From Streptomyces phaeolivaceus (GTDB taxonomy: Bacteria; Actinomycetota; Actinomycetes; Streptomycetales; Streptomycetaceae), in NCBI RefSeq assembly GCF_009184865.1, contig NZ_CP045096.1:7068001-7132000 (forward strand): a stretch of DNA of 64,000 nucleotides, read 5' to 3'. The notes beneath the pieces are model-generated. The model saw only the letters and a list, made by a program, of their open reading frames with translations, did no database searches and was not told where the DNA came from. Position numbers and translations under genes: made by a program. Shown here piece after piece: positions 30,455-49,631 of the stretch. The number at the start of each line of letters is the position of its first letter. Positions within the stretch are counted from its first letter, which is position 1.

Positions 30455-32182
30455 GTGGGACGGCACAGCCGCAAGGGGCGGGCGCCGAAAGGCGACACGA
30501 ACGACACAAGGGCAGCCCGGACGGCGACGTCCGCCGGGCCGGACGACCGCGGACCTGCGGCGCCGCGAGCGCCGGAGGGCCAGGCCGTCCGGGGTGTCCC
30601 GGGCGCGGGCGGACCGGCGATTCCGGGCGCCAGGGGCGCTTCGGTGCCGGCGACTCCGACGGCTCCGGCGGGGGCCCGGTCGCCGGGCGGTACCCCGCGG
30701 CTCCGCGGATACGACGGCGCCCCCGGCCAGGGGGCGCCGAGGTTCGCCGGGGGCGCGCCAGGGCAGCAGGGGCCGCGCTTCCCCGACGGCACGCCCGCGC
30801 ACGGATTCCCCCGCTTTCCCGACGGCACCCCGGCGCACGGGGTGCCGCGTTTTGCCGATGGCACTCCGGCGCACGGTTTTCCCCGGCTGCCCGACGGCAC
30901 TCCGGCGCGCGGCTATCCGCCGAGTCGTGGTGGGCACCCCGAGCAGCGTGAAGAGGGCGGGGGCTGGGGGCATCTGGGTGGTGGTGGGCGCCGTACGGGT
31001 GCCGGACACGGCGTGGCGCAAGGGGCTCCCCAGGGGGCCCCGTATGGTGTGCCGGGCGAGGCGTCACCCCCCGGCGCCCCGTACGGCGAGCCTTCCGAGC
31101 GTTCCGGTCGCCGCACCCCCATTCCCCGGCAGCGGCAGGAGACCATGCCCCCCGGAGGCCCCCGCCAGGCCTATCTGGATGCCTTCGACGAGGTCGACGA
31201 CATCCACACACCCGGTCGGACACACCGTGCCGCGCCGGGCGCCGACGCGGACGGCCGGGTCGAGGTGGCCCTTGAGGAGATGCCGCTGCGGGAGGCTCCT
31301 TCGCGGCGGGAACCGCTGTCCGAGGATCCTCCGGACGACGGGTCCGCGGCCGGGTCCGGGGAGACGGCGAAGGGCGGCAAGGGGCGCGCGTTCGCCGGGA
31401 TCGCCGCCGCCGCGGTGACGACCGTGCTGGTGGTCGTCGTGGGCGGGCAGATGACTGGCGGGGACGAGGGCACCGTCACACAGCCGCAGGCCGCCGACGC
31501 CGGCGAACGCGATGTGCGCGACACCTCGCGCAGCGACGACCGGCCCACACCGTCCAGCTCGCCCAGCCCGAGCGCGACCCCGCTGTCGTACGACCAGAAG
31601 ATGGGCGAGAAGTACGCGCTCGCCGCCGATCTGAAGGGCGGCGGGAAGTTCGAGGCGGTCAAGGGCTTCGACAAGGCGCCGGGGACGGGTGAGAAGTTCC
31701 GCTACCGGGTCGATGTCGAGAAGGGACTCGGCCTGGACGCCGCGCTGTTCGCCGAGGCGGTGCAGAAGACCCTGAACGACGACCGGAGTTGGGCCCACAG
31801 CGGCGGCCGTACGTTCGAGCGGATCTCCTCGGGGACACCGGACTTCGTGATCACGCTGGCCAGCCCGGGGACCACCGCGTTCTGGTGTGCCAAGTCGGGG
31901 CTCGACACGACCGTCGACAACGTGTCCTGCGACTCGGCCTCCACCGAGCGCGTGATGATCAACGCCTACCGCTGGGCCCAGGGTTCCGAGACGTACGGCG
32001 ACCGGATCCATCCGTACCGGCAGATGCTGATCAACCACGAGATCGGTCACCGCCTCGGCTACAACCATGTGACCTGCGACAAGGACGGCGACCTCGCCCC
32101 CGTCATGCAGCAGCAGAGCAAGTTCCTGACGTACGACGGGATCACCTGCAAGGCCAACCCTTGGCCCTACCCTGGTAGTTGA
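30455..32182 (+). CDS. DUF3152 membrane-anchored metzincin-like protein
   Basis: A 575-residue protein. Residues 1-310 are cytoplasmic and low complexity, with four to five copies of a 12-residue unit FPDGTPAHGFPR at about 108-155. One transmembrane helix lies at about 311-332. The extracytoplasmic C-terminal domain carries HEIGHRLGYNH (His528, Glu529, His532, His538), exactly the HExxHxxGxxH zinc motif of metzincin peptidases, and several Cys residues that may form disulfides. The family is DUF3152 (Rv3207c). A zinc endopeptidase acting on the envelope is likely, though activity is not shown. GTG 30455 is the start. Confidence 0.85.
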   Translation: MGRHSRKGRAPKGDTNDTRAARTATSAGPDDRGPAAPRAPEGQAVRGVPGAGGPAIPGARGASVPATPTAPAGARSPGGTPRLRGYDGAPGQGAPRFAGGAPGQQGPRFPDGTPAHGFPRFPDGTPAHGVPRFADGTPAHGFPRLPDGTPARGYPPSRGGHPEQREEGGGWGHLGGGGRRTGAGHGVAQGAPQGAPYGVPGEASPPGAPYGEPSERSGRRTPIPRQRQETMPPGGPRQAYLDAFDEVDDIHTPGRTHRAAPGADADGRVEVALEEMPLREAPSRREPLSEDPPDDGSAAGSGETAKGGKGRAFAGIAAAAVTTVLVVVVGGQMTGGDEGTVTQPQAADAGERDVRDTSRSDDRPTPSSSPSPSATPLSYDQKMGEKYALAADLKGGGKFEAVKGFDKAPGTGEKFRYRVDVEKGLGLDAALFAEAVQKTLNDDRSWAHSGGRTFERISSGTPDFVITLASPGTTAFWCAKSGLDTTVDNVSCDSASTERVMINAYRWAQGSETYGDRIHPYRQMLINHEIGHRLGYNHVTCDKDGDLAPVMQQQSKFLTYDGITCKANPWPYPGS

Positions 32183-32372: not shown

Positions 32373-34529
32373 GTGCGCATCGGACTGCTTACGGAGGGTG
32401 GCTATCCGTATGTGAGCGGTGACGCCAGGCTCTGGTGCGACCGACTCGTACGCGGGCTGGAGCGACACGAGTTCGACATCTACGCGCTCAGCCGGAGCGA
32501 GCGGCAGGAGGACGAGGGCTGGATCCCGCTGCCGAGGCAGGTCAGCCGGGTCCGCACGGCACCGCTCTGGACGGCCGAGGGCGACGGGGTCGTCCATGGC
32601 CGCCGGACCCGCAGGCGCTTCGCGGAGGCGTACGGCGAACTGGTGGCGGCCGTGTGCTCGGGCGGAGGAGGCGGGGTCGGGGTTGCGGCTGGGGTCGCAG
32701 CCGGGGTTGCGGCTGGCATGGACGGCGGGGCCGGTGCGGCCGGTGTGGCCGGAGATGCCTCCCGAGGTGGGGCCGACGTTGAGGCGGACCGTTTCGGCAA
32801 CGCGCTGTACGGGCTCGCCGAGTTGGCGCGTGACGAGGGTGGGCTGGTCGGCGCGCTGCGCTCCGAGGTCGCCGTGCGCACGCTGGAGCGCGCCTGTCGT
32901 GCGCCGGGCGCACTGCGGGGGGCGCGTGCGGCTCGCGTACCGGATCTGCTGACGGTCGCCTCACATCTCGAACGCGCCCTGCGCCCCCTCTCGCTCGACT
33001 GGTACGAGGACGACGGGCTCGGCTCGGTCGACCTGTGCCACGCGGCGGCGGGCGGCTCGGCCGCGCTGCCCGGACTGCTGGCCCGGCACTTCCACGGGGT
33101 GCCGCTGCTGGTCACCGAGTACGGCGTGCCGCTGCGGGCGCACTACCTCGGGGCCTCGGGGGAGCCGCCGGTGCGCGCCCTGCTCGCGGCCTTCCACCGG
33201 CGGCTGACCGCCGAGGTCTACCGGGAGGCCGCCTGCCTCACCCCCGGCAACACCCACGCCCGGCGCTGGCAGGAGCGCTGTGGCGCCGACCGCGCCAGGA
33301 TCCGGACGGTCTACCCCGGCATGGACGCCGCCCGCTTCGCGCAGGTCGGCGAGTCGGCGGAGTGCGCGGATCCGCACACGCTGGTCTGGGTCGGCCGTAT
33401 CGAGCCCGCCAAGGACCTGATCTCGCTGCTGCACGCCTTCGCCGAGATCCGCCGGGCGGAACCCAAGGCGCGGCTCAGGATCGTCGGAGCGGCGGCGGGG
33501 TCCGAGGCCGTCGCCTATCTGGGGCACTGCAAGGCCCTGGCCGCACAGCTCTTCCCCGACGAGGCGGACGGCGTCCACGCGGTCGGCGACAACCCCGTCT
33601 CCTTCGAGGGGATCGGCGACCCGGCCGTCCCCGACCTGGCCGAGGCCTATGCGGCGGGCGCGGTGGTCGTGCTGTCCAGCGTCGTCGAGGGCTTCCCGAT
33701 CAGCCTGGTCGAGGCCATGTTCTGCGCCCGGCCGACGGTCTCCACCGATGTGGGCGCGGTCGTGGAGGTCATCGGCGGCACCGGGCTCGTCGTACCGCCG
33801 CGCAATCCGCGGGCGCTCGCCGAGGCGTGCGTGGCACTCCTGCGAGAACCCGAGCGCCGCGCGCGCCTTGGCGCCGCCGCCCGCGCACGAGCCCTCGAAC
33901 TCTTCACGGTGGAACAGAACGTCGAGGCATTTCGTGGCATCTACCTCGAAGTCGTCTCCCACGCCCCGGTACGCAAGGTCGTCCTCGACGACTCCGGCGA
34001 ACCACGGCCCTTCGGAGCGCCCGCCGAGGCCCGTGTCCCCGGCCGCTGGACCGATTCCCAGGTGGCGACGGGAGGGCTTGGGGTTGCGGGGGTCGCTGGT
34101 GTGGCAGGAGTTGCTGGTGTGGCGGGGATCGCGGGGGTCGCCGGTGTGGTGGGGGCCGCCGGGCCCGGTGGGGGTGCTGCCGGGAGGCCGCCGTGGGCCG
34201 TGGGGGCGCCCGTGCGGGCGACGGTGCCGCCGCCGGCCCCGGCCCCGCCGCTGGCACCTGGCTCGGCATCGGCACCGGGCGCTGTGCCTGGCCTTGCACG
34301 GGGGCCCGTGGCCCGGCCGGTTCGGGAGGCGGCATCCGGCACAACACCCGACACAGCACCCGACACGGCTCCGCCCTCGGTGTCCGCCCCGGTCACGGCT
34401 TCGCCCTCGGTGTCCGCCCCGGTCACGGCTTCGGCTTCGGCGTCGGCCGGGGATCCGGTCCTGGCCACGGAGAGGGCCTCGGGCACGGGGGCCGGGGAGC
34501 CGGTGCCCGCGGGGGAGGGGGCGCGATGA
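32373..34529 (+). CDS. PelF-like family 4 glycosyltransferase (DUF3492)
   Basis: A 718-residue cytoplasmic glycosyltransferase. The N-terminus VRIGLLTEGGYPYVSGDARL is the DUF3492 signature found in PelF, the enzyme that polymerises the Pel polysaccharide from UDP-GalNAc/GlcNAc. The C-terminal Rossmann domain has VWVGRIEPAKD and the EX7E motif EGFPISLVE near residue 440. After about residue 560 comes a Gly/Ala/Val repeat (GVAG units) and a Pro/Ala/Ser-rich tail. GTG 32373 has GGGGG 7 nt upstream. The stop overlaps the next gene (ATGA). Which sugar it uses is inference from the family and neighbours. Confidence 0.82.
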   Translation: MRIGLLTEGGYPYVSGDARLWCDRLVRGLERHEFDIYALSRSERQEDEGWIPLPRQVSRVRTAPLWTAEGDGVVHGRRTRRRFAEAYGELVAAVCSGGGGGVGVAAGVAAGVAAGMDGGAGAAGVAGDASRGGADVEADRFGNALYGLAELARDEGGLVGALRSEVAVRTLERACRAPGALRGARAARVPDLLTVASHLERALRPLSLDWYEDDGLGSVDLCHAAAGGSAALPGLLARHFHGVPLLVTEYGVPLRAHYLGASGEPPVRALLAAFHRRLTAEVYREAACLTPGNTHARRWQERCGADRARIRTVYPGMDAARFAQVGESAECADPHTLVWVGRIEPAKDLISLLHAFAEIRRAEPKARLRIVGAAAGSEAVAYLGHCKALAAQLFPDEADGVHAVGDNPVSFEGIGDPAVPDLAEAYAAGAVVVLSSVVEGFPISLVEAMFCARPTVSTDVGAVVEVIGGTGLVVPPRNPRALAEACVALLREPERRARLGAAARARALELFTVEQNVEAFRGIYLEVVSHAPVRKVVLDDSGEPRPFGAPAEARVPGRWTDSQVATGGLGVAGVAGVAGVAGVAGIAGVAGVVGAAGPGGGAAGRPPWAVGAPVRATVPPPAPAPPLAPGSASAPGAVPGLARGPVARPVREAASGTTPDTAPDTAPPSVSAPVTASPSVSAPVTASASASAGDPVLATERASGTGAGEPVPAGEGAR

Positions 34530-35914
34530 GCGAGCTGCGCTTGGACGGGCTGGACGAGTTGGACGGGTTCGACGGACTCCACGGGGCGGATCGCTCGGCC
34601 GTGGACGGGACGGACCGCTCGGCCGTGGAGGCGGCGGATCGCACGGACGCATTGGACCGCGCGGACATCCTGGACCGCTCGGCAGCGTCGGACCGATCAG
34701 CAGCGTCGGACCGATCAGCAGCGTCGGACCGCTCGGCAGCGTCGGACCGCTCGGCAGCGCCGGGCCGTTCGGACGGGGTCGCCCCGCCCGAGACCACTGC
34801 CCGGCTCATCGACGACAGCTCCGCCGCGGCCGAGGCCAAGGCTTCTCCGCGCCGCGGTGGCGTCGATCCGGTGAAGGCCCTGATGCACCGGCACCGGGTG
34901 CTGTGCGAGCGGGCGGTGGACCCCTTGGAGATCGCCGCCGGGCTGGAGGCGCACGGGGTGACCGACCGCACGGCTGCCCGCTTCCGGCACCGGGACGTCT
35001 TCTCGCTCGCCGAGGAGATGTACGCGCGCGTGTCGCGCGACGCGGAGGAATCCACAGAGCGCGAGCCGGTGCCGAGCGCGCCCGGCGCACGCCGTGGCTG
35101 GGCCGTGCTCGCCGTTCTGCCGGGCACGGTGTGCGCGGCGGCCGTCGTCGGAGTACGCCTCACCGACGGCCAACCCCGTCTCGTGGCCGCCGCCCTCGGC
35201 GCCCTCGCGGTGGCGCTCTCCCTCCGCGTGGCCCTCGACCGGGGCCCACTGCGTGTCCCGCCGGACATGGCGGGCCGCACCCGGATCTGGACCTGCTGGC
35301 TGGTCGCGTACGCCCTCCTCGGCGACGGCCTGCTCACCGCCGGTCTCGACGGCGGCCCCCACGGCCTCTGGCCCATGGCCCTCGCGCCCGTACTCGCGCT
35401 CGCCCTGTCCTGCGCCCCCGCCGTCTGGTGCGCCCACCTCCTCTCGGTACGCGCCCGCCGCAAACTGGCCGCCAGCCGGGGCCTCGCCGAGTTCGCCGAC
35501 TCCGTGCAGCCCCTGATCCTCGGCGTGTTCGCACTCCACCTCTGCGCTCTGGGCGCTCTGCTCGCGCTGAGCGGCGCCGTCCTGGACGAGACCGCCGGGT
35601 ACGCCGGCGCGGGTGCCCTGGGCGCGCTCCTGCTGCTCGCCCGTCTCCTCACCGCCCACGGGTTCCCCCAGGCCCCGGCCGTCGCCCTCCGCGCCGCCGC
35701 CGTGGCCGTGGCGCTCGCGCTGGGCACGGTCTTCGCGAGCCGACTGCCCGGCTGCTCCCTCCTGTCCGTCCCGGTCGAGACCGTCGCCGAGGCCTGGGGC
35801 CCCGGGGCCGTCCCCGCCCTCGTGTGCGGCGCCGCCGCGCTCGCCCTGCTCGTCCACGCCACCCGCACGCTGACCCGGGCCTCGGCCCACGCCCTGCCCT
35901 CCGGGGCGACCTGA
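34526..35914 (+). CDS. Integral membrane protein of the polysaccharide locus (about 8 TM)
   Basis: A 462-residue protein. Residues 1-75 are a charged, repetitive leader with five SDRSAA-type units of 18 bp each; residues 110-170 are soluble; then about eight hydrophobic helices run from residue 185 to 455. I do not recognise the family. PelG, the membrane partner of PelF, has 12 helices, so this is not an obvious PelG, but position and translational coupling (ATG overlapping the glycosyltransferase stop) make it a candidate export or assembly partner. Confidence 0.7.
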   Translation: MSELRLDGLDELDGFDGLHGADRSAVDGTDRSAVEAADRTDALDRADILDRSAASDRSAASDRSAASDRSAASDRSAAPGRSDGVAPPETTARLIDDSSAAAEAKASPRRGGVDPVKALMHRHRVLCERAVDPLEIAAGLEAHGVTDRTAARFRHRDVFSLAEEMYARVSRDAEESTEREPVPSAPGARRGWAVLAVLPGTVCAAAVVGVRLTDGQPRLVAAALGALAVALSLRVALDRGPLRVPPDMAGRTRIWTCWLVAYALLGDGLLTAGLDGGPHGLWPMALAPVLALALSCAPAVWCAHLLSVRARRKLAASRGLAEFADSVQPLILGVFALHLCALGALLALSGAVLDETAGYAGAGALGALLLLARLLTAHGFPQAPAVALRAAAVAVALALGTVFASRLPGCSLLSVPVETVAEAWGPGAVPALVCGAAALALLVHATRTLTRASAHALPSGAT

Positions 35915-36064
35915 CCCACCTCGGGCCCCGCACGGCCGAACACCGCCCTGCGAGCCCGAGTCCGACCGATGCGCGGGACATCCGTCCCGGGCGTCACCTC
36001 CCGCGGGGCCGACACCGCGGGCCCACCTCATCACCCCGGCACCACCCCATAAGGAGAACGCCAG

Positions 36065-36112
36065 ATGATCACCTCCCGAACCGGAGAACCCGCCCCGGGA
36101 GCCGCCCGATGA
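36065..36112 (+). CDS. 15-residue mini-ORF coupled to the epimerase gene
   Basis: ATG 36065, preceded by AAGGAG with an 8-nt spacer, opens MITSRTGEPAPGAAR and stops with TGA at 36110-36112, which overlaps the epimerase ATG. The ribosome site is the best in the locus. It may couple or regulate translation of the epimerase rather than make a functional peptide. Too short to judge by coding statistics. Confidence 0.45.
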   Translation: MITSRTGEPAPGAAR

Positions 36113-37068
36113 GGGTCCTGCTGATCGGAGCCAACGGATACCTCGGCCGCTTCGTCGCCGAGCGCCTGCTCGCCGACCCGGCCGTACAGCTCACCGCGCT
36201 CGGCCGCGGCGACGACGCCGACGTACGGTTCGACCTCGCCACCGGCAGCCCTGGCGCGCTCACCCGCTTCCTGGACGCCGTCCACCCCGGAGTCGTCGTC
36301 AACTGCGCCGGAGCCACCCGCGGCGGCGCCCGCGAACTCACCCGGCACAACACCGTCGCCGTCGCCACCGTCTGTGAGGCCCTGCGTCGCAGCGGCTGCG
36401 GCGCCCGACTGGTGCAGCTCGGCTGCGGCGCCGAGTACGGGCCCAGCCAGCCCGGCTCCTCCACCGCCGAGGACGCCGTGCCCCGCCCCGGCGGCCCGTA
36501 TGGCGTCAGCAAACTCGCCGCCACCGAACTCGTCCTCGGCTCCGGCCTGGACGCCGTGGTCCTCCGTGTCTTCTCGCCCGCCGGACCCGGCACCCCCGCC
36601 GGCTCCCCGCTCGGCCGCCTCGCCGAAGCCATGCGCCGCGCCATGCAGTCCGGCGACGGCGAGCTGAAACTCGGCGGCCTCGGCGTCCAGCGCGACTTCG
36701 TCGACGTCCGCGACGTCGCCCGCGCCGTCCACGCCGCCTCGCTCTCCGCCGCCCAGGGTGTGATCAACATCGGCTCGGGCCGAGCCGTACGCCTCCGCGA
36801 CGCTGCCGCCGTCCTCGCCCGCGTCGCCGGATACGGCGGCGCCCTCCACGAACTCGACGCCCCACCCGGCCCCCTCAGGCCCACCATCGGCCACCCCCGC
36901 CCCGAACCGGACCACGCGGGCCCCGTCTCCTACCCCTATCCGGACGGCTGCGGCAGCTGGCAGCAGGCCGATGTGCGCACCGCCCGCGACCGCCTCGGCT
37001 GGCGGCCCCGCATCAATCTGGAGGAGTCCCTCGCCGACATCTGGATGGAGGCGGCATGCCGTATCTGA
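36109..37068 (+). CDS. NAD-dependent sugar-nucleotide epimerase/dehydratase
   Basis: A 319-residue short-chain epimerase. GANGYLG at residues 7-13 is the NAD-binding loop and Tyr131-x3-Lys135 (YGVSK) the catalytic pair; NIGSG and DFVDVRDVARA fit extended SDR sugar epimerases. With the neighbouring PelF-like transferase a C4-epimerase making a UDP-GalNAc-type precursor is plausible, as PelX does in Pel systems; other sugars are possible. The start overlaps a mini-ORF and its 3' end overlaps the glycosidase gene by 13 bp. Confidence 0.85.
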   Translation: MRVLLIGANGYLGRFVAERLLADPAVQLTALGRGDDADVRFDLATGSPGALTRFLDAVHPGVVVNCAGATRGGARELTRHNTVAVATVCEALRRSGCGARLVQLGCGAEYGPSQPGSSTAEDAVPRPGGPYGVSKLAATELVLGSGLDAVVLRVFSPAGPGTPAGSPLGRLAEAMRRAMQSGDGELKLGGLGVQRDFVDVRDVARAVHAASLSAAQGVINIGSGRAVRLRDAAAVLARVAGYGGALHELDAPPGPLRPTIGHPRPEPDHAGPVSYPYPDGCGSWQQADVRTARDRLGWRPRINLEESLADIWMEAACRI

Positions 37069-37805
37069 CCCCCTCCCCGTCCGGCGTCGCCAGTACCGGC
37101 TTACGTCTGCGCTTCGGCATCCCCGGCTATGCCCACCCCCTCGTCGCTCCCCTGGAATGGGGCGAACTCACCCGCCCCGGCACGCCGCTGCACTGGGTCG
37201 TCCTGAACGTCTCCGACGGCCCCGGCACCCGCCCCGACCCGCACTGCCTGGAAGCCGCCGGACGGCTCCGGAACGGGGGCGTCCGGGTCCTCGGCCACCT
37301 GGACACGACCTATGGGGCGCGCGCCCTCGCCGAGATCGCCGCCGACGCACACCGCTATCTCGACTGGTATCGGGTCGACGGCTTCGTCCTGGACCGCTGT
37401 CCCACCGGGCGCGGCGCCCTCCCCGAGACCGGCCGCACGGTCACCGCGCTCCGGACCCTCCTCGGCGGCGGCCACCTCGTCCTCGGCCACGGCACGCACC
37501 CCCACCCCGGATATGTGGAGATCGCCGACCAGCTGGTGACCTTCTCCGGGCCGTGGAGCGACTACCGTTGGTCGCAGGTGGCCGAGTGGACCGCAGACCA
37601 TCCGCCCGAGCGCTTCTGCCATTTCGTCCATGGTGTCCCGCGCGGCCACCTCGACGAAGCGCTGCGCATCGCCCGCTGGCAGGGCGCCGCCACGATCTAC
37701 TTCACCGACCGCACGGACCGCGGCGGACGGATCGACCCCTGGGAGACGATGCCCGGCTACTGGGACGAAATCGTCTCGCTGGTTGGAACGGGTGTCTCGG
37801 AATGA
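37056..37805 (+). CDS. Spherulation-specific family 4 protein (Sph3/GH135-like)
   Basis: A 249-residue protein with the spherulin-4 pattern: PGYAHPL at the start, VVLNVSDGPG, LGHLDTTYG, YRVDGFVLDR and LVLGHGTHPHPGY. Fungal Sph3 of this family (GH135) is an endo-acting glycosidase needed to make galactosaminogalactan, chemically related to Pel. No signal peptide is seen, so the protein should be cytoplasmic. Where I would expect an Asp-Glu pair after the DG motif the sequence reads Asp-Arg, so catalysis may differ or be lost. Overlap with the epimerase gene supports a common operon. Confidence 0.78.
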   Translation: MPYLTPSPSGVASTGLRLRFGIPGYAHPLVAPLEWGELTRPGTPLHWVVLNVSDGPGTRPDPHCLEAAGRLRNGGVRVLGHLDTTYGARALAEIAADAHRYLDWYRVDGFVLDRCPTGRGALPETGRTVTALRTLLGGGHLVLGHGTHPHPGYVEIADQLVTFSGPWSDYRWSQVAEWTADHPPERFCHFVHGVPRGHLDEALRIARWQGAATIYFTDRTDRGGRIDPWETMPGYWDEIVSLVGTGVSE

Positions 37806-37868: not shown

Positions 37869-39047
37869 GTGTCGCTGCCACCCCTGGTCGAGCCCGCTTC
37901 CGAGCTCACCGTAGACGAGGTCCGCAGGTACTCCCGCCACCTGATCATCCCCGACGTGGGCATGGACGGGCAGAAGCGGCTGAAGAACGCCAAGGTGCTC
38001 TGTGTGGGCGCCGGCGGCCTGGGCTCGCCGGCGCTGATGTACCTGGCCGCGGCGGGTGTCGGCACGCTCGGCATCGTGGAGTTCGACGAGGTCGACGAGT
38101 CGAACCTGCAGCGCCAGATCATTCACAGCCAGGCCGACATCGGCCGCTCCAAGGCCGCGTCCGCCCGTGACTCCGTCCTCGGCATCAACCCGTACGTGAA
38201 CGTGATCCTCCACGAAGAGCGGCTCGAGGCCGAGAACGTGATGGACATCTTCAGCCAGTACGACCTGATCGTCGACGGCACGGACAACTTCGCGACCCGC
38301 TACCTGGTCAACGACGCGGCCGTGCTGCTGAACAAGCCGTACGTCTGGGGCTCGATCTACCGCTTCGACGGCCAGGCCTCCGTCTTCTGGTCCGAGCACG
38401 GCCCGTGCTACCGCTGCCTCTACCCGGAGCCCCCGCCGCCGGGCATGGTCCCCTCCTGCGCCGAGGGCGGCGTCCTCGGTGTGCTGTGCGCCTCCATCGG
38501 CTCCATCCAGGTCACCGAGGCCATCAAGGTCCTCACCGGCACGGGCGAGCCGCTGGTCGGCCGCCTGATGATCTACGACGCCCTGGAGATGCAGTACCGC
38601 CAGGTCAAGGTCCGCAAGGACCCGAACTGCGCGGTCTGCGGCGAGAACCCCACCGTGACCGAGCTCATCGACTACGAGGCCTTCTGCGGCGTCGTCTCCG
38701 AGGAGGCCCAGCAGGCCGCCGCCGGCTCGACCATCACTCCCAAGCAGCTCAAGGAGTGGATCGACGACGGCGAGAACATCGAGATCATCGACGTCCGCGA
38801 GATCAACGAGTACGAGATCGTCTCCATCCCGGGCGCCAAGCTGATCCCGAAGAACGAGTTCCTCATGGGCACCGCCCTGGAGTCCCTCCCGCAGGACAAG
38901 AAGATCGTCCTGCACTGCAAGACGGGTGTCCGCAGTGCGGAAGTCCTCGCGGTCCTGAAGTCGGCCGGTTTCGCCGACGCGGTCCACGTCGGCGGCGGTG
39001 TGATCGGCTGGGTCAACCAGATCGAGCCGAACAAGCCGGTCTACTAG
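37869..39047 (+). CDS. moeZ: Adenylyltransferase/sulfurtransferase MoeZ
   Basis: A 392-residue fusion. The N-terminal E1-like domain has GAGGLGSPALMYLAAAGVG for ATP binding and two CxxC zinc pairs (CYRC and CAVC). The C-terminal rhodanese domain has catalytic Cys350 in HCKTGVRSAE. MoeZ adenylates and sulfurates the C-terminal glycine of small sulfur carriers (MoaD, ThiS, CysO types) and in actinobacteria serves several pathways including thio-tailored natural products. GTG 37869 follows GGAG. A terminator lies at 39066. The mycobacterial moeB1 (Rv3206c) directly follows DUF3152, without the intervening polysaccharide genes. Confidence 0.93.
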   Translation: MSLPPLVEPASELTVDEVRRYSRHLIIPDVGMDGQKRLKNAKVLCVGAGGLGSPALMYLAAAGVGTLGIVEFDEVDESNLQRQIIHSQADIGRSKAASARDSVLGINPYVNVILHEERLEAENVMDIFSQYDLIVDGTDNFATRYLVNDAAVLLNKPYVWGSIYRFDGQASVFWSEHGPCYRCLYPEPPPPGMVPSCAEGGVLGVLCASIGSIQVTEAIKVLTGTGEPLVGRLMIYDALEMQYRQVKVRKDPNCAVCGENPTVTELIDYEAFCGVVSEEAQQAAAGSTITPKQLKEWIDDGENIEIIDVREINEYEIVSIPGAKLIPKNEFLMGTALESLPQDKKIVLHCKTGVRSAEVLAVLKSAGFADAVHVGGGVIGWVNQIEPNKPVY

Positions 39048-39163: not shown

Positions 39164-40681
39164 CTACGTGCAGACCTTGCCGTCCTTCGGTACGGTCCCG
39201 TCCAGCAGATACGCGTTCACCGTCGAGTCGACACAACTGCTGCCGCTGCCGTACGCGCCATGGCCCTCGCCCTTCCAGGTGAGCATCACACCGACGCCCT
39301 CGCCCAGTTCCCCGGCCATCTTCCGCGCACCCTCGTAGGGCGTCGCCGGGTCCCCGGTGTTGCCCACCACGAGGACGGGCGCCGCTCCGGGGGCGCTCAC
39401 CTCCGGTGAGTCCGTCAGGCCAGGCACCGGCCAGTCGTAGCACCAGCCCGCGGTGTCCCAGCCCAGGTACTCGCCGAAGACGGGCGAGATCTTCCGGAAC
39501 TCGGGCAGCAGCTTCTTCGTCTCCTCGGGAGTCGGCCGCTGCTTCTGGTCCAAGCACGATATGACCCGTTGGGAGTGGGTCGTCGTGCCGTAGCGGCCCG
39601 AGGGGTCGCGCTCGTTGTAACCGTCGGCCAGCGTGAGCAGCTCGGTGCCGTCGCCGTCCTCGGCCGCGTCGAGCGCGCTGGTCAGCGTGGACCAGCTCTG
39701 CTCGCTGTAGAGCGGCAGGACGATACCGGTGGTGGCCAGCGTCTGGGTGAGTTCACGGCCGGACGTCGTCGCCAGGGGCTCGGCATCGATCCGCTCCAGC
39801 AGGGCCTCGATCTTCCGGGTGCCCGCCGCGGGGTCCTGGCCCGTGGACTTCAGATAGTTGTCCAGCGCGCGCTGGAAGCCCAGGGTCTGGTTCTTCGCGT
39901 GGCCCACGGTGTCGGCCGTGGGGTCGACCACCGCGTCCAGGACCAGGCGCCCCACGTTCTCGGGGAACAGATGGGCGTAGACCCCACCGAGCTCGGTGCC
40001 GTAGGAGATGCCGAAGTAGTGCAGCTTCTCGTCGCCGAGCGCCTGGCGCATGAGGTCCATGTCGCGGGCGGTCTCGGTGGTCGAGACATGCGACAGCAGC
40101 TTGCCGGCGGCCTTCTCGCAGCCCGCGCCGAAGTCGGACGCGTCCTTGAAGAAGGCCGTCTCCTCCGTCGCGTCGTCCGGTGTGGCGTCCACCGACTCGC
40201 CCGCCTGGATCTCCTTGTCGCTGCGGCAGCGCACCCCCTCGCTCTCGGCCACCCCGCGCGGATCCCAGCTCACCAGGTCGTACCGCTCGTGCAGTTCGCT
40301 CGTGAGGCCCGCGTACGACGGCAGCATGGACACGCCCGAGCCACCGGGCCCGCCGAAGTTGAACAGGAGGGAGCCGACACGGTCGTCTGCGTCACCGGTC
40401 GCCTTGCTGCGGATCAGGGCGAGCCCGATCGTGCCGTCGTGCGGTTTCGCGTGGTCCAGCGGCACCTTCAGCGTCGCGCACTGCCAGTCGTCGCCCGGCG
40501 CCGGGCCCTCCGAAGTCGCCTCGCAGCGCCCCCAGTCGAGCTTCTGCGGCGCCGCTGCGGAAGTCGAGGCAGCCTTTCCGTCGTCCGCGTCCTCGCTCGC
40601 CTTGTCCTCCGTGCCGCCACTACAGCCGGCGATCAGCAGCACGGCAGCGGCCAGAGCCGCCCCCCGTGGAAAACGCGCCAT
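39164..40681 (-). CDS. Secreted Slp/tripeptidyl-aminopeptidase-type lipoprotein hydrolase (copy 1)
   Basis: A 505-residue precursor with a lipoprotein signal (lipobox IAGC). The alpha/beta hydrolase domain shows NFGGPGGSG (oxyanion), DLVSWDPRG, nucleophile GISYGTELGG near residue 225, LVVGNTGDPATPYEGA (acid) and GEGHGAYG (His). This is the pattern of Streptomyces SlpD/SlpE and tripeptidyl aminopeptidases, which remove N-terminal peptides outside the cell. ATG 40681 is preceded by GGGGGA. It is a tandem paralogue of the next gene. Confidence 0.88.
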   Translation of the reverse strand: MARFPRGAALAAAVLLIAGCSGGTEDKASEDADDGKAASTSAAAPQKLDWGRCEATSEGPAPGDDWQCATLKVPLDHAKPHDGTIGLALIRSKATGDADDRVGSLLFNFGGPGGSGVSMLPSYAGLTSELHERYDLVSWDPRGVAESEGVRCRSDKEIQAGESVDATPDDATEETAFFKDASDFGAGCEKAAGKLLSHVSTTETARDMDLMRQALGDEKLHYFGISYGTELGGVYAHLFPENVGRLVLDAVVDPTADTVGHAKNQTLGFQRALDNYLKSTGQDPAAGTRKIEALLERIDAEPLATTSGRELTQTLATTGIVLPLYSEQSWSTLTSALDAAEDGDGTELLTLADGYNERDPSGRYGTTTHSQRVISCLDQKQRPTPEETKKLLPEFRKISPVFGEYLGWDTAGWCYDWPVPGLTDSPEVSAPGAAPVLVVGNTGDPATPYEGARKMAGELGEGVGVMLTWKGEGHGAYGSGSSCVDSTVNAYLLDGTVPKDGKVCT

Positions 40682-40800
40682 GAGCACTTCCCCCCTCTCG
40701 CGATACCGTCCACCGGATGTCCCGAATGGCAGTCATGCCATGGTATGCGGACCGCCGTGTCGGCCGAGAAGGCCTGTGGATAACGTTCTGACCTGCATGT

Positions 40801-42360
40801 TCAGGAGCAGACCGTGCCGGATTTCGGTACCTTCCCCGTCAGCAGGTAGCCGTCCACGGCCGTTTGTACGCAGGAGTTGCCGCTGCCGTACGCACCGTGC
40901 CCCTGCCCCTTGTACGTCAGCTCGACGCCGACCCCCGCCCCGAGCGCCTCGACCATCTTCCGCGCGCCCTCGTACGGGGTGGCCGGGTCGCCCGTGTTGC
41001 CGATCACGAGGATCGGCGCCGAGTCAGGGGCACGCACGTCGGGGTGGTCGGCCGCGCCGACGACGGCCCAGTCCGTGCAGCTCAGCATGGCCCAGGCGAG
41101 CCACTCACCGAAGAGGGGGGAGGCCGCCCGGAACTCGGCCAGTCTCGCCTCCACGTCCTCGGTGGTGTAGCGGGGCTTGTCGTCCGCGCAGTTGATGGAG
41201 ATGTTCGCCGCGGTGATGTTGCTGTACTCACCGTTCTCGCTGCGCCCGTTCAACGAGTCGGACAGCAGCATCAGCACACTGCCGTCCCCGTCGTACGCCT
41301 GTTCAAGGCCCTCGGTCAGGTACTGCCAGAGATCCTCGGAGTACAGGGCCTGGGCGATCCCCGCCCGCGCCTCCGACTCGGTCAGGTCGCGGGGGAAGAC
41401 TCCGGCGATCGGCTTGCGATCGAGGTCGTCGAGCAGCTTGACGATCCGGTCCTCGACGTCCTGCTCGGTGTCGCCGACCGGGCAGTCCTCCACCTTCGAC
41501 ACACAGTCCCGGGCGTAGTTGTCGAGCGCCAGCTGGAAGCCCTCTGCCTGTCCGAGCGAGCTTTGTTCCGCGGTCTGGGTCGGGTCGACGACCGCGTCGA
41601 ACACGGCCCGTCCGACGTTCTCGGGGAACAGATGGGCGTAGACGCCGCCGAGTTCGGTGCCGTACGAGAAGCCGAAGTAGTGCAGTGCGTCGTCGCCGAG
41701 GACCTGGCGCAGGAGGTCCATGTCGCGGGCCGCGTCCGTGGTGCGGACGTGCGGGAGGGTCGTGCCGGAGTTCTCCTCGCAGGTGGAGTTGAAGGTCTTC
41801 GTGTTGTCGAGGAACTCCGTACGCTCGGCCGCGTCGTCCGGGGTCCCGTCCTGCTGGAAGTACTCGTCGAGTTCCTCGTCGTCCTCGCACTCGACGCCGA
41901 CGCTGCGACCGACGCCCCGCGGGTCGAAGCTCACCAGGTCGTAGCGGGTGCGCAGTTTCGCGTAGTCCTCGCCGAAGGAGGGGAGCGTCTTGACGCCAGA
42001 GAGGCCGGGGCCGCCGAAGTTGAAGACGAGCGAGCCGATGCGCTGCTTCCCGGAGCCGCTGGATTCGGCCCGGATCAGGGCGATGCCGATCGTGTCGCGT
42101 TCGGGCTCGTCCCATGCGAGGGGCGCCTTCATGGTCGCGCACTGCCAGACCTGGCCGTCCGGCAGCGGTGCGGGCGCGCTGCCGCCGCCCTGGGCCTGGG
42201 AGGGTGCCCCGCAGGTCTCCCAGCTCAGCTTTTGGGTGGTCAGATCCCCGTCGTCGCCCTGGGAGTCGTCTCCGCAGCCCGCCGCCGACAGGGACAGCAG
42301 GACGGCGACGGCGGTCATGGCGACGGCACATGATCGGGGCGAGGTCGGCATGCACCCCAT
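40801..42360 (-). CDS. Secreted Slp/tripeptidyl-aminopeptidase-type lipoprotein hydrolase (copy 2)
   Basis: A 519-residue paralogue of the preceding gene with lipobox SAAGC, NFGGPGLSG, nucleophile FSYGTELGG near residue 230, VIGNTGDPATPYEGA and GQGHGAYG. The two share layout throughout but differ in many residues, so the duplication is old. An ATG at 42351 could also be the start. Both genes lie between moeZ and the flippase-like gene on the minus strand; each has its own upstream gap of about 110 bp. Confidence 0.87.
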   Translation of the reverse strand: MGCMPTSPRSCAVAMTAVAVLLSLSAAGCGDDSQGDDGDLTTQKLSWETCGAPSQAQGGGSAPAPLPDGQVWQCATMKAPLAWDEPERDTIGIALIRAESSGSGKQRIGSLVFNFGGPGLSGVKTLPSFGEDYAKLRTRYDLVSFDPRGVGRSVGVECEDDEELDEYFQQDGTPDDAAERTEFLDNTKTFNSTCEENSGTTLPHVRTTDAARDMDLLRQVLGDDALHYFGFSYGTELGGVYAHLFPENVGRAVFDAVVDPTQTAEQSSLGQAEGFQLALDNYARDCVSKVEDCPVGDTEQDVEDRIVKLLDDLDRKPIAGVFPRDLTESEARAGIAQALYSEDLWQYLTEGLEQAYDGDGSVLMLLSDSLNGRSENGEYSNITAANISINCADDKPRYTTEDVEARLAEFRAASPLFGEWLAWAMLSCTDWAVVGAADHPDVRAPDSAPILVIGNTGDPATPYEGARKMVEALGAGVGVELTYKGQGHGAYGSGNSCVQTAVDGYLLTGKVPKSGTVCS

Positions 42361-42469: not shown

Positions 42470-45298
42470 CTAGAGCGCGCCCTTTCGGGACAACTGGTTG
42501 AAGGCCAGCCACCCCGGCAGCACGGGCAGCCACAGCGTCAGCAGACGGAACAGCAGCACCGCGGGCGCGGCGACCTCCTTGGGGAGGCCGACGGCGATCA
42601 GGCCCACCGTCAGGGTGGCCTCGACCGCTCCCACACCGCCCGGGGTCGGCGCCGCGGAACCGAGCGCGTTGCCCGCGAGGAAGACGACGGCGACGCTGGC
42701 GATGCTGATCGAGACGTCGTCGTTGCCGAAGGCACGGATCGAGGCGTCCAGGCACATCACGAAGCAGCCGGTGAGGAGCAGCATGCCGCCGATGCCGGTG
42801 ACCAGCTTCTGCGGCCGCTGCAGCACGTCGAGCATGCGCGGCACGACACCGGCGAAGAGCGACCGCACGCGCGTGGCGACGAATTTGCGCAGGAACGGGA
42901 TCGACGTCACCACCAGGACGAGCACCGCGACCGTCAGCAGGCCCGCGATGACGGTGCGGGACGGCGACAGGGACGGCGTCTTCTCGGTGCCGGTCAGATA
43001 GCCGAAGGCGAGCAGCATCAGGATGTGGCAGCCGAGGCCGAAGAGCTGCGACGCACCGACACTCGCCACCGCGAGCCCCGGCCGTACCCCCGCGCGCTGC
43101 AGGAAGCGCGTGTTGAGCGCCACACCGCCCACCGCGGCAGGCGCCACGATCTTCACGAACGACCCGGCGACCTGCGCCGCGATCGTCCGCAGGAACGGCA
43201 CCCGTTCCGGTACGAAGCCCAGCAGGCTCATGGCCGCCGCGACATAGCTCAGCGCGGAGAAGAACACGGCGGCGGCGACCCAGCCCCACTCGGCGTTCTC
43301 GATCAGCGGCCCGAACTCGATGTGGGTGAGCTGGGTCAGCAGGAAGTACGCGCCGATCGCGCCGGCGATGAGACTGATCAGGGTGCGCGGCTTGACCCGC
43401 TCCAGCCGGGCCGGTTCGACCGGGGCCTGGGGCCTGATCAGCAGCACCTGATGGCGGATCTGGGTGAGCAGGTCCTCCTCGCGGGCCTCCTCCAGGGCCT
43501 CGTCGAGCGCCCTCTTCTCGGCCCGCTGCTCGGCCCGTACGGCCTTCTTGTCCGCCTTGCCGGGCTCACCGGCCTTGCCTGGCTCGGCAGCCTTGCCGTG
43601 CTCCTCCGCGCGCGCCTGCTTGGCCAGGTGGGATGCCTCCAGGACCGCCTCGCGCTCGCGTTCGGCACGTTCCCGGGCGAGTCTGCGCAGGGTCGCGCGC
43701 GTGGAGCGCGAAAGGGCGATGGGCTGCAGCATCGGCAGACAGTCGGCCACCGCGTCGGGGCCGAGGACGCTCACCGCCGAGGCCACCGCGCGTTCGGCAC
43801 CCACCCGCAGGCCCAGGGTCGTCAGCAGTTGGGAGACGTCCATGCGCAGCACCAGGTCGCCCGCCGCGATCTCGCCGACTCGCAGATCGGTCAGGATCAC
43901 CGTGCCGGAACGATCCACCAGAATCGCGTCGCCCACCAGCCTGCGGTGCGCGATGCGCCGCGACTGCAGCGCCTTCACCTGGTGCCAGGTGTCCGACATC
44001 AGCTCGTCGGTGACCTCGTCGTCCGCCAGGGAGTCCAGCGTGTGCCCACCGGTGTGCTCGTAGACGAGCATCACGGCGTCCGGTCCGAGCTCGGAGGTCG
44101 CGATCAGTTTGGGAGCGTTGGCGCCGGCCGCGATGGCCGCGTACGCGAGGAGGGCCTCCTGCTCCAGCGCCTGGCGCAGCGACTGGAGGCTGCGGCGCGT
44201 GGTGATGCCGCGCAGCGTCAGCCGCCGCCAGACGCGGTAGAAGAAGCCCTGCGCCTGCTGCTCCCGGTCGACGACGGTGACGTCCAGCGGTGGGCCGTCC
44301 TCCAGCGTCACGAAGTACCGGCGGCCCCGGTCCCCGCCCTCCGCCGTCTCCGGGAGCTCCTCGCGGGCGGCGCTCACCGGTTTGAAGCCGACCCGCCGGA
44401 GGCCGGCCATGAGGGTCCGGCCGGTCGGGCGTACGTTCGGGGAGCCGACCGCGTAGAGCGTCCCGTAGGCCACGGTCCAGCCGATCAGCACCGTCAGGAT
44501 GATCGAGAACGGTGTGGTGTAGCCGGTGACCAGCATCGAGAAGGCGTCCAGCAGCAGCACGATCCACAGCACGGCCCGCCAGCGCGGTCTGCGGGACATC
44601 CCGACGGCGGTCATGTACGCGATGACGGGTGCGAGATAGCCGTGCACGGGGTCGGTGAGAGCGTGGATGTCGCCGGGCGACGGCTGGGTGAGGGCCTCCT
44701 GGATGGAGTCCGGGGCGGCCCTGGCGACCCACAGGTCGGTCGCCAGCGTCACCCCGTGTGCCAGGACCGCGGCGAGTACACCGTCGGCGATGCGCAGCCC
44801 GTCCCGCTTGATCAGCCGTTCGATCGCGAAGGCGACCGGTACCAGCAGGATCGCGATGCTCGACCCGAGGCCCGCCAGCTTGATCAGGAGATCCGGCGCC
44901 TGCCCCGTGCCCTTGTTGATGTCCTGTTCGAGTCCGGAGGTGGTGCCATGGGCGAACGCGGCGATCGCCAGCAGGACGATGATCCCGAGGATGCCCACCG
45001 ACAGCCGCATGAGGTCGGAAGGACGGTGCACGCGCGCGGGGAGCAGCGGTTCGTCGCCCTCCACCTCCTCGGCGTGCGCCTCACCGGGATCGTCCTCGTC
45101 CGGCTCCGCCCGCTGCTTCTCGTTCTCGTCCGCCTTGGGGGAGGTGTTCTCGGCCACGGACGGGGAGGACGGGGTGGTGTCGGAGGCCTTCTCCGAGACG
45201 TCGTCGGTGCCCTCGTCGCCTCCCTGGGAGGCGTTCGGGCGCGATGAGGCGTCAGAGGTGCCCGCCGCGTCATCGGGGTGCACGCTCTGCTGCTTCAT
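42470..45298 (-). CDS. Lysylphosphatidylglycerol-synthase-TM/flippase-like protein with degenerate kinase-like domain
   Basis: A 942-residue membrane protein. Residues 1-95 are acidic and unfolded; about 6 helices follow (105-300); residues 330-560 form a soluble kinase-like region (ALLAYAAIAAGANAPKLIA, VYEHTGGHTLDSL, HRRLVGDAILV, VILTDLRVGEI) in which the usual HxD and DFG are replaced by HRR and TDL; then a Lys/Glu-rich linker and 8 or so helices of the LPG-synthase TM type (residues 640-935, APAAVGGVALNTRF, PGGVGAVEATL). No catalytic lysyl-transferase domain is present. A lipid flippase gated by a pseudokinase is an inference. ATG 45298 follows AAGAAG. Confidence 0.82.
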   Translation of the reverse strand: MKQQSVHPDDAAGTSDASSRPNASQGGDEGTDDVSEKASDTTPSSPSVAENTSPKADENEKQRAEPDEDDPGEAHAEEVEGDEPLLPARVHRPSDLMRLSVGILGIIVLLAIAAFAHGTTSGLEQDINKGTGQAPDLLIKLAGLGSSIAILLVPVAFAIERLIKRDGLRIADGVLAAVLAHGVTLATDLWVARAAPDSIQEALTQPSPGDIHALTDPVHGYLAPVIAYMTAVGMSRRPRWRAVLWIVLLLDAFSMLVTGYTTPFSIILTVLIGWTVAYGTLYAVGSPNVRPTGRTLMAGLRRVGFKPVSAAREELPETAEGGDRGRRYFVTLEDGPPLDVTVVDREQQAQGFFYRVWRRLTLRGITTRRSLQSLRQALEQEALLAYAAIAAGANAPKLIATSELGPDAVMLVYEHTGGHTLDSLADDEVTDELMSDTWHQVKALQSRRIAHRRLVGDAILVDRSGTVILTDLRVGEIAAGDLVLRMDVSQLLTTLGLRVGAERAVASAVSVLGPDAVADCLPMLQPIALSRSTRATLRRLARERAEREREAVLEASHLAKQARAEEHGKAAEPGKAGEPGKADKKAVRAEQRAEKRALDEALEEAREEDLLTQIRHQVLLIRPQAPVEPARLERVKPRTLISLIAGAIGAYFLLTQLTHIEFGPLIENAEWGWVAAAVFFSALSYVAAAMSLLGFVPERVPFLRTIAAQVAGSFVKIVAPAAVGGVALNTRFLQRAGVRPGLAVASVGASQLFGLGCHILMLLAFGYLTGTEKTPSLSPSRTVIAGLLTVAVLVLVVTSIPFLRKFVATRVRSLFAGVVPRMLDVLQRPQKLVTGIGGMLLLTGCFVMCLDASIRAFGNDDVSISIASVAVVFLAGNALGSAAPTPGGVGAVEATLTVGLIAVGLPKEVAAPAVLLFRLLTLWLPVLPGWLAFNQLSRKGAL

Positions 45299-45453
45299 CG
45301 TCTCTTCTTGGTCTCGTATCACCAGTCACCGCCCGCACGATGGTGGCATGCCGGGTGGGCACACAGGGGCATCAGGGTGCAATGCGGGGGCGCACAGTCT
45401 GCCCGAAGACCGCCCCCGGAGCGAGGGACGCACGCGGCGGCCACCACGTCCCA

Positions 45454-49100: not shown

Positions 49101-49574
49101 TTCGACGTCACCCTCGAAGCGGGCGACTACGAGGTGCGCATCCGGGGCTCCATGGACCGTGTCGAGACCGACGCCGAGGGCCGCGCGTATGTCGTGGACT
49201 TCAAGACGGGCAAGCAAGCCGTGAGTTCCGCCGAGGTGACCCGCCATCCCCAGCTCGCCGTGTACCAGCTGGCGGTCCGCGAGGGAGCCGTCGACGAGCC
49301 GTTCGGTGGCGTGCGGCCCGAGCCGGGCGGCGCCGAACTCGTCCAGCTGCGGCAGGGCGCCGCCAAGAAGAACGGCGGCGAGACCGTCCCCAAGGTGCAG
49401 GCTCAGGCCCCCCTTGAGGGCGCGGAAGGGGAGTGGGTCGGAGACCTCCTGGCGACGGCCGCGGGCAAGGTCCTGGACGAACGTTTCTCCCCGACCGCCG
49501 GACAACACTGTGCACACTGCGCTTTCCGGGCATCGTGCAGCGCGCGCCCGGAGGGCCGTCACGTGGTCGAGTGA
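46173..49574 (+). CDS. adnA: AdnA-like UvrD-family helicase/nuclease
   Basis: An 1133-residue protein. The superfamily 1A motor has Walker A AGPGTGKTTT (about 57-66), VDEYQD near 265, GDPDQSIYTFRG and late motif VATTRA. The C-terminal RecB-like nuclease has VVDFKTGKQ near 1007, and four Cys residues (one near 879, then CAHCAFRASC at about 1112-1121) fit the iron-sulfur staple of AddAB/RecB-type nucleases. AdnA and AdnB form a heterodimer that resects DNA double-strand ends in actinobacteria. GTG 46173 is the most upstream plausible start, with only a weak ribosome site. Gene order adnA-adnB matches Rv3202c-Rv3201c. Confidence 0.88.
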   Translation: MSSSFSTRRLSHTQVRQGSRGAYRLVRTPPARTDPPRLDAEQRGVVDHERGPLLVLAGPGTGKTTTLVESVAARVARGADPARVLVLTFSRKAAVELRDRMALRMGAPRAPQATTFHSFCYALVRAHQDSDLFVEPLRLLSGPEQDVAVRELLAGQPDLERLGLAHVRWPDELRACLTTRGFADEVRAVLARSRELGLAPEDLRAFAARIGRPDWLAASAFLAEYLDVLDLQGVLDYAELVHRAVLLAGRPGVAERLAAQYDAVYVDEYQDTDPAQVRLLRALADGGRTLVAFGDPDQSIYTFRGADVNGILEFPAAFPRADGRPAPVTVLRNSRRSGADLLAATRLLTRRMPLTRLPAEKVRAHRELRPVRDGGRVEVHTYPTPGTEVDNIADVLRRAHLEDGVPWSEMAVLVRAGARTIPSIRRTLTAAGVPLEIDGDDLPLRHEPAVQPLLAALRAVARAELGKAAPTAPTASATDPDQSPDGTESSDGTEPLDAPDPPDEEPSWLDTETALDLLASPLAGMDTADLRRLGRALREEERAGGNPVPPPSDELLARALAEPERLVAHDPVYARGAQRLGSLLRKAREHLAGGGTAEEALWELWDGTPWPKRLERAARRGGAGGRNADRDLDAVCALFATAARAEERTGGVGALNFLAEIEAEDIAADTLTGRAVRPDAVRLMTAHRSKGLQWRLVVVAGVQEGLWPDLRRRGSLLEADRIGRDGLAEPLTPGALLAEERRLFYVATTRACERLVVTAVKAPADDGDQPSRFLAELGVEPKDVTGRPRRPLSVAALVAELRATTVDPRVSDSLREAAAQRLARLAALSDEDDRPLVPSAHPYRWWGMDEPTESKVPLRNRDQPVVLSGSALDQLANTCALQWFLGREVKADAPATAAQGFGNVVHVLADEVASGRTPADLDVLMERLDSVWNALAFDAPWKSEQEKQHARVALERFLKWHVMDRTGRAPVASEHDFDVTLEAGDYEVRIRGSMDRVETDAEGRAYVVDFKTGKQAVSSAEVTRHPQLAVYQLAVREGAVDEPFGGVRPEPGGAELVQLRQGAAKKNGGETVPKVQAQAPLEGAEGEWVGDLLATAAGKVLDERFSPTAGQHCAHCAFRASCSARPEGRHVVE

Positions 49575-49602: not shown

Positions 49603-49624
49603 TGTCAGTGGCCGCGGCTAGCCT
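49603..49624 (+). promoter_or_regulatory. PafBC-type DNA-damage promoter before adnB
   Basis: TGTCAGTG (49603-49610), exactly 8 bp, then TAGCCT (49619-49624) matches the consensus TTGTCRGTG-N8-TANNNT. The adnB ATG follows 7 nt later with no Shine-Dalgarno, so a leaderless damage-induced transcript is likely. Confidence 0.65.
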
Positions 49625-49631
49625 CTCTGGA

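Follow-up and report, generated by a model that had tools for sequence, protein, structure and literature searches.

A moeZ-linked relative of galactosaminogalactan and Pel operons with altered active sites in Streptomyces phaeolivaceus

The window analyzed here is a stretch of 64,000 nucleotides from the 10.18 Mb genome of Streptomyces phaeolivaceus (contig NZ_CP045096.1, positions 7,068,001 to 7,132,000). Four genes on one strand, located between a gene for a DUF3152 protein and moeZ, encode a PelF-like glycosyltransferase (GT), a membrane protein (MEM), an extended short-chain dehydrogenase/reductase (SDR) termed EPI, and a spherulin-4-like protein (SPH). Sequence comparison supports the kinship of this moeZ-linked locus with the machineries for fungal galactosaminogalactan (GAG) and bacterial Pel, its vertical descent through most of the family, a change of its active sites, and purifying selection on its genes.

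Genes of the moeZ-linked locus and of its paralogues

The places and identities of the four genes given in a first-pass annotation of the window agree with the open reading frames and with the Pfam and NCBIfam matches (Table 1). The GT and MEM genes overlap by 4 nt and the EPI and SPH genes by 13 nt, whereas MEM and EPI are separated by 194 bp, so that the tight packing described in that annotation applies to the two overlapping pairs only. GT matches DUF3492 in two stretches, contains GT4 domains in addition, and narrowly passes the PelF cut-off of NCBIfam, which is 100 bits; it is thus DUF3492/PelF-like and not a trehalose or glycogen enzyme. EPI is an NAD-dependent epimerase-type SDR, and its nearest matches in the PDB are mixed in specificity, with GDP-6-deoxy-D-lyxo-4-hexulose reductase first. 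SPH aligns with the fungal Sph3 structures 5d6t and 5c5g (E-value of the PDB match to Sph3, 8.4e-08). The closest named relatives of MEM, SPH and EPI are found in Streptomyces, for example in S. brasiliscabiei, S. europaeiscabiei and S. stelliscabiei.

Table 1. Features of the moeZ-linked locus and its flanks (positions in the window)
Feature	Position	Strand	Evidence
DUF3152 protein, upstream flank	30455..32182	+	Pfam PF11350, 205.1 bits
GT, PelF-like glycosyltransferase of the GT4 type, DUF3492 domain diverged	32373..34529	+	DUF3492, 92.2 bits; NCBIfam PelF, 104.6 bits; residue table
MEM, membrane protein with a helical domain at the N-terminus and probably a reduced fold of the MOP-flippase type	34526..35914	+	Models, fold comparison, homology to MEM_B
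EPI, SDR of the extended type (epimerase, dehydratase or reductase of nucleotide sugars), Cys106 at the position of the catalytic Ser/Thr	36109..37068	+	PF01370, 127.3 bits
SPH, spherulin-4/GH135-like protein, Ser164 at the position of the acid/base Glu	37056..37805	+	PF12138, 85.0 bits; alignment to Sph3 5d6t/5c5g; residue counts
MoeZ adenylyltransferase/sulfurtransferase, downstream flank	37869..39047	+	NCBIfam MoeZ, 755.7 bits

MEM matches no family of Pfam or NCBIfam at E ≤ 0.1, and to this extent it is as unfamiliar as first described, but it is probably a reduced protein of the MOP fold, as judged from models and a fold comparison. It is homologous to MEM_B of the paralogous locus L026 (1.5e-14). 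The number of its transmembrane helices, which had been given as eight, is only approximate, because seven hydropathy peaks are found in the sequence and about 9-10 long helices in a model of moderate confidence. The moeZ-linked MEM proteins have fewer hydropathy peaks than those of the paralogous operons. A MOP-like fold would make MEM analogous to PelG, which belongs to the MOP superfamily, and would not make it a member of the Pel system. The flippases of this superfamily (MATE, WzxE, MurJ) are among the closest known systems. A fold is proposed here for the membrane protein, so far without a name, that accompanies GAG-like operons in bacteria.

The genome contains three DUF3492 loci and three Spherulin4 genes, both at the identical three places, indicating that this grouping of genes is not due to chance. 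The kinship with the Pel/GAG machinery that was proposed earlier is borne out. The two other loci are L025 (G000:C2:604000-622000), with the order AGD-GT-MEM-GalE-NTP transferase-EPI-SPH-GH114, and L026 (G000:C2:2386000-2404000), with the order AGD-GT-MEM-SPH-GH114, where AGD is an Agd3-like protein; MEM of L025 is recognized by its position and by alignment. The GH114 proteins of L025 and L026 score 293.1 and 304.2 bits respectively. The single AGD proteins of these loci stay below the Agd3 cut-off of Pfam (21.1 and 19.0 versus 27.6), and nothing is found in the PDB with one Agd3-like sequence alone, whereas a profile of 17 AGD proteins gives Agd3 (6nwz) as the best PDB match (E 4.7e-11), and 14 of these 17 match Agd3_CE at E ≤ 0.01. 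The gene orders of L025 or L026 recur in sixteen further loci from genomes of this genus (L108-L123), with some genes missing or uncalled. Together with L025 and L026 they form the canonical set of 18 loci, which were chosen by a strong DUF3492 score; this choice favors conserved GT motifs, but the contrasts between canonical and moeZ-linked EPI and SPH are independent of it. Four loci lie outside the genus: L124 and L125 contain partial sets with AGD, L127 gives weak GT and GalE matches only, and L126 yields no gene calls.

The canonical operons are of a known but uncharacterized kind, because Agd3-linked operons of bacteria have already been published: Bamford et al. 2020 (PMC7229062) describe a GT, a membrane protein and often GH114, with Spherulin-4 in some Actinobacteria. 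The Agd3-associated operons share with the moeZ-linked locus a GT with DUF3492, a multi-spanning membrane protein and Spherulin-4, as well as EPI in those of the L025 type, and GT, MEM, EPI and SPH of the window are homologues of theirs. In contrast to them, the moeZ-linked locus has neither an Agd3-like nor a GH114 gene, is bound to moeZ and occurs almost throughout the family, has altered active sites in GT, EPI and SPH, and encodes a MEM with fewer predicted transmembrane helices. The Aspergillus GAG cluster (gtb3, agd3, ega3, sph3, uge3) likewise combines a GT and a transmembrane part with an epimerase-type SDR and a GH135-type protein. However, no homologue of Agd3 or Ega3 is present at the moeZ-linked locus, SPH lacks a signal-like N-terminus and the acid/base Glu, and Gtb3 has been reported to be a GT integral to the membrane, whereas GT and the membrane part are encoded by separate genes in the window. 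The Gram-positive Pel operon, given as pelDEA(DA)FG by Whitfield et al. 2020 (PMC7112168), shares a PelF-like GT, and MEM, probably a MOP-fold protein, would stand in the role of PelG.

When the four genes and the two flanks are scanned with Pfam and NCBIfam, neither a deacetylase nor GH114, nor a PelA-type deacetylase/hydrolase, is detected, and no Agd3 (CE18) deacetylase is found within positions 32373-37805. The four genes also have no Pfam match to PelD or PelE, for which the rest of the genome was not searched. PelG (PF16933) has no match to its hidden Markov model anywhere in the genome, while the Thermotoga maritima control is positive.

Active sites of GT, EPI and SPH

The moeZ-linked loci compared with the canonical set are 78 regions fetched around MEM matches. 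They represent 78 of the 135 genomes, other than that of the window, with MEM, and mostly the stronger matches; the presence of MEM is therefore biased and the deep genera are thinly sampled. Genes were called with a GC-bias caller written for this analysis, which called none in L126, L141 and L146. In the 78 regions it calls EPI and MoeZ 78 times each, GT and MEM 76 times each, and SPH 62 times. A further sample consists of 80 named loci, the best 80 of 477, which are close relatives and may overlap the other samples.

The GGVS loop of GT is present in 18 of 18 canonical GTs but in none of 56 moeZ-linked ones, 19 of the 75 moeZ-linked rows lacking the GT N-terminus at these columns owing to gene calling. 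In the window GT this loop is replaced by GDAR, while R342, K347, E439 and E447 are retained. Each of these four residues is found in all 18 canonical GTs, as compared with 65/75 (R342), 63/75 (K347), 65/75 (E439) and 70/75 (E447) of the moeZ-linked GTs. The losses occur mostly in nine deep-branching loci (L039-L044, L096, L106 and L107). When these nine rows are excluded, the four residues are retained in at least 95% of 66 GTs, and many other positions are fixed for a new residue, for example Gln for E300 and Cys for G303 in 66/66 each. The retention of the donor-site residues together with positions fixed for new residues suggests that the moeZ-linked GTs represent a new subfamily rather than the result of drift. 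The named loci give the same picture, with K347, E439 and E447 in 68/68 GTs and R342 in 65/68; GGVS is absent from all 66 that contain this region. In the nine deep-branching loci, GT, MEM and EPI still lie beside moeZ, and SPH is uncalled.

In EPI, the GxxGxxG motif is present in 76 of the 78 moeZ-linked proteins (the other two are gapped) and the Tyr and Lys of YxxxK in all 78. The catalytic Ser, placed by the YG motif of GalE and RmlB, is conserved in 10/10 canonical EPIs but only in 9/78 moeZ-linked ones; it is Cys in the other 69, as well as in 80/80 named loci. In a tree of EPI, a single branch separates 79 moeZ-type from 10 canonical proteins (100/100); this tree is unrooted, without an outgroup, and is flagged for a long branch between them.

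In SPH, the acid/base Glu is present in 17/17 canonical proteins but in 1/61 moeZ-linked ones, and it is absent from two further moeZ-type samples, 0/120 (the best 120 of 1277, including that of the window; close relatives that may overlap other samples) and 0/78 (one of which has Asp). W167 and Y170 are present in 61/61 moeZ-type rows, indicating that the alignment is firm at the Glu column. The nucleophile Asp (Asp113 in the window) is retained in 17/17 canonical and 43/61 moeZ-linked SPHs. For Sph3 itself, PMC10485009 gives Asp166, Glu167 and Glu222 as putative catalytic residues, and PMC12054363 prints Asp196/Glu222; Glu222 is the acid/base, and the nucleophile is thus numbered Asp166 or Asp196. 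Glu167 is excluded as evidence, because the residue following Asp is Arg or Gln in canonical SPHs as well. The only moeZ-linked SPH with Glu belongs to L073 (G023:C7), in which EPI also retains Ser and is sister to the crown of Cys-type EPIs. L073 is thus a possible intermediate, and the replacements of Glu and of Ser may have occurred near each other.

A crude hydropathy test detects a signal-like N-terminus in 0/17 canonical and 0/62 moeZ-type SPHs, and in 11/15 AGD and 7/8 GH114 proteins, suggesting that SPH of each of the three types of operon probably stays in the cytosol. Both the lost Glu and the lack of a signal-like N-terminus disagree with the earlier view of SPH as an Sph3-like glycosidase.

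It is improbable that the locus encodes a working Pel/GAG-like synthase that makes a GalNAc-rich, possibly cationic polymer. Such a synthase would account for the passing of the PelF equivalog cut-off, for the match of SPH to Sph3 and for the parallel with the fungal GAG genes, and paralogues of the operon that do include genes for Agd3-like and GH114 proteins exist in the same genome. However, the four genes include neither a deacetylase nor GH114, the genome has no PelG match, GGVS is absent from GT, Ser of EPI is replaced by Cys, and Glu of SPH is almost always lost, so that the four genes can hardly be the functional Pel/GAG set that the first-pass annotation saw in them. The cationic polymer that it assigned to this locus fits L025 and L026 better; these are the loci of the genome from which a GAG-like polymer can reasonably be expected. 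Annotation of PelF or spherulin-4 at the moeZ-linked locus should therefore not be taken as a sign of Pel/GAG production.

Distribution, age and selection

Window-type EPI (E ≤ 1e-70) is found in 141 of 150 genomes of the family, which represent 15/17 genera and include all 38 genomes of the window's own genus. The nine genomes without it are all seven of genera g2 and g5, G074 (76% completeness) and G075. MEM matches are found in 136/150 genomes and 14/17 genera. The order GT-MEM-EPI-(SPH)-MoeZ is kept in 74 of the 78 regions, in 59 with SPH and in 15 without it, and no region has mixed strands; a GT or MEM call is missing from the remaining four. Thus, the gene set is not scattered in relatives. 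All five genes are in order in 67/80 named loci, and the other 13 are seven short contigs without GT and/or MEM, three with a gene called twice, and three without a MEM or SPH call.

DUF3492 is found in 33/296 genomes of a class sample, 28 from the window's genus and 5 from outside. In a second class sample, of 246 genomes, EPI scores no higher than 164 bits outside the genus, as compared with at least 525 bits in 22 genomes of the genus. Of 20 outgroup moeZ regions fetched (one of only 3.2 kb), 18 yield gene calls, and a match to GT, MEM, EPI or SPH is absent from all 18. In a 60-genome class sample, 23 genomes of genera other than that of the window have a DUF3152 match. The DUF3152 gene and moeZ are direct neighbors in 6 of them, an adjacency that the first-pass annotation gave for mycobacteria; they are 1.9-2.9 kb apart in 4/23 and not close in 13/23. 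The distances of EPI and GT correlate with those of MoeZ over 75 loci (r 0.758 and 0.741 respectively; none of 500 permutations is as high). The spread of EPI and MEM, the conserved order, the empty outgroup moeZ regions and the neighboring DUF3152 and moeZ genes elsewhere make the block look like an old insertion in the family, not in the strain, that is vertically inherited in most of the family. A recent insertion, by which a polymer would have been added to this one organism as first proposed, is ruled out by the frequency of EPI, the order and the correlation with MoeZ.

A role of the locus as a regulator or decoy of a canonical operon is also disfavored, because in 15 of the 28 genomes of the genus with DUF3492 no match exceeds 150 bits, so that these have the moeZ copy only.

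The ratio of nonsynonymous to synonymous substitution rates (dN/dS) is below 1 in all 20 pairs of moeZ loci, which were hand-picked as close pairs, with medians of 0.24 for GT, 0.38 for MEM, 0.054 for EPI, 0.27 for SPH (19 pairs) and 0.077 for MoeZ. The canonical medians, calculated from all pairs with dS < 0.75, are 0.257 for GT (73 pairs), 0.428 for MEM (55), 0.364 for EPI (38), 0.391 for SPH (51), 0.41 for AGD (49) and 0.429 for GH114 (12). By these values, the moeZ-linked genes show no greater relaxation than their canonical counterparts, and EPI is far more constrained; it is the most constrained of the four moeZ-linked genes, at the level of MoeZ. It is therefore very improbable that the locus is a decaying leftover operon, kept only through its position upstream of conserved moeZ. 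Rapid evolution of GT, MEM and SPH, the lost catalytic residues, the absence of an SPH call from 16 of the 78 regions and the absence of EPI and MEM from two genera would be expected from pseudogene decay, but dN/dS disfavors it, the moeZ-linked medians of GT, MEM and SPH being no higher than the canonical ones, and a mutant of the counterpart SCO5174, described below, shows a phenotype.

Possible role in the envelope of differentiating mycelium

The counterparts of the four genes in S. coelicolor should be SCO5174-SCO5177. This assignment is made from colinearity with SCO5178, given as moeB, a putative sulfurylase, in PMC4340878, and with SCO5183/5184, given as helicases in PMC6637917; in the window, two helicase-like open reading frames (46173-49574 and 49608-53123, by eye) lie downstream of moeZ. 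An assignment to SCO5179-5182 is rejected, because SCO5183/5184 are helicases and these lie downstream of moeZ in the window. According to PMC3610822, SCO5174, SCO5175 and SCO5177 are among the 53 conserved genes of unknown function that change most between the first and second mycelium, with log2 increases after 24, 48 and 72 h of 2.2-2.6, 3.3-3.8 and 3.0-3.5 respectively, and are more than 8-fold up in differentiated mycelium; SCO5176 is not in its table of these 53 genes. SCO5174 mutants produce less actinorhodin, and SCO5174 is grouped with cslA and glxA as a cell-envelope gene, as reported in PMC6585502. No report on the moeZ-linked locus as such, or on its divergence, was found among open-licence PMC articles.

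Altered active sites in a four-gene relative of the Pel/GAG operons point to a different job, probably in the envelope of differentiating colonies. We therefore favor, with a probability of roughly 0.45, that the locus is an old, vertically inherited and neofunctionalized paralogue of the actinobacterial GAG/Pel-like operon that acts on a glycan of the envelope and does not make a Pel/GAG polymer. The MOP-like role of MEM, the non-hydrolytic SPH, the altered acceptor of GT and the role in an envelope glycan are all predictions. EPI, an SDR with Cys for the catalytic Ser, would supply or modify a nucleotide sugar, and GT, with its conserved donor site and rebuilt N-terminal loop, would move the sugar at the inner leaflet onto an acceptor other than a Pel/GAG chain. 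The reduced MOP-like MEM would hold or pass the product, and cytosolic SPH would bind a glycan without cleaving it. The product may serve the envelope of the differentiating mycelium, rather than being a secreted, deacetylated, cationic polymer. A more specific version is tentative: an exopolysaccharide operon would have been duplicated and rebuilt early in the Streptomyces family, with replacement of the acceptor loop of GT, the catalytic residue of the SDR and the acid/base of the hydrolase, to give a development-induced complex of GT, MOP-like protein, Cys-SDR and non-hydrolytic GH135 protein. This complex, centered on the Cys-SDR, would produce or sense a glycan that normal differentiation requires.

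Several results weigh against the favored reading. Of the columns invariant in the canonical proteins, 7/44 in SPH, 53/206 in GT and 34/129 in EPI are kept in less than 10% of the moeZ-linked rows, so that the active-site changes are part of a wide divergence and are not singled out. GT of the nine deep-branching loci lacks donor-site residues as well, and an SPH call is missing from 16 of the 78 regions. Genera g2 and g5 have no EPI or MEM match in 7/7 genomes, suggesting that the block is dispensable in these two genera. The model of the window MEM is only moderate (pLDDT 73.2, pTM 0.62), and the SCO numbers come from colinearity, not alignment. The loss of Glu may still leave SPH with an altered hydrolase activity.

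It is also conceivable, though unlikely, that no glycan is made and that GT, MEM and SPH are non-catalytic sensing or scaffold parts around EPI, which would carry the main function. EPI alone is constrained at the MoeZ level, GGVS is absent from moeZ-type GTs and donor-site residues are lost in the nine deep loci, SPH lacks Glu in 60/61 and Asp in 18/61, and MEM has fewer hydropathy peaks, all as expected for such a scaffold. However, a pure scaffold needs none of the donor-site residues that GT keeps outside the nine deep loci, and the catalytic residue of EPI itself is changed.

With the reading as a neofunctionalized paralogue, a conserved, developmentally induced Streptomyces block of unknown function is now tied to the GAG/Pel superfamily, and residue-level predictions for S. 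coelicolor follow from the split in the active sites.

Farther downstream of moeZ, on the opposite strand, two tandem genes for secreted alpha/beta-hydrolase-like proteins (39164-40687 and 40801-42360) are seen by eye, followed on the minus strand by a gene for a large membrane protein (42470-45322), the C-terminal part of which resembles, also by eye, a lysylphosphatidylglycerol synthase/flippase-type domain. The upstream side varies among the 78 regions: the gene 5' of GT encodes DUF3152 in 27 and a protein of 520-740 amino acids unrecognized as DUF3152 in 34. In L031, the one region scanned with Pfam here, an oligopeptide ABC transporter cassette (L031:406-5802; SBP_bac_5, two permeases and a double ATPase) lies immediately 5' of GT, and genes of similar sizes occupy the corresponding place in L036, L052 and other regions.

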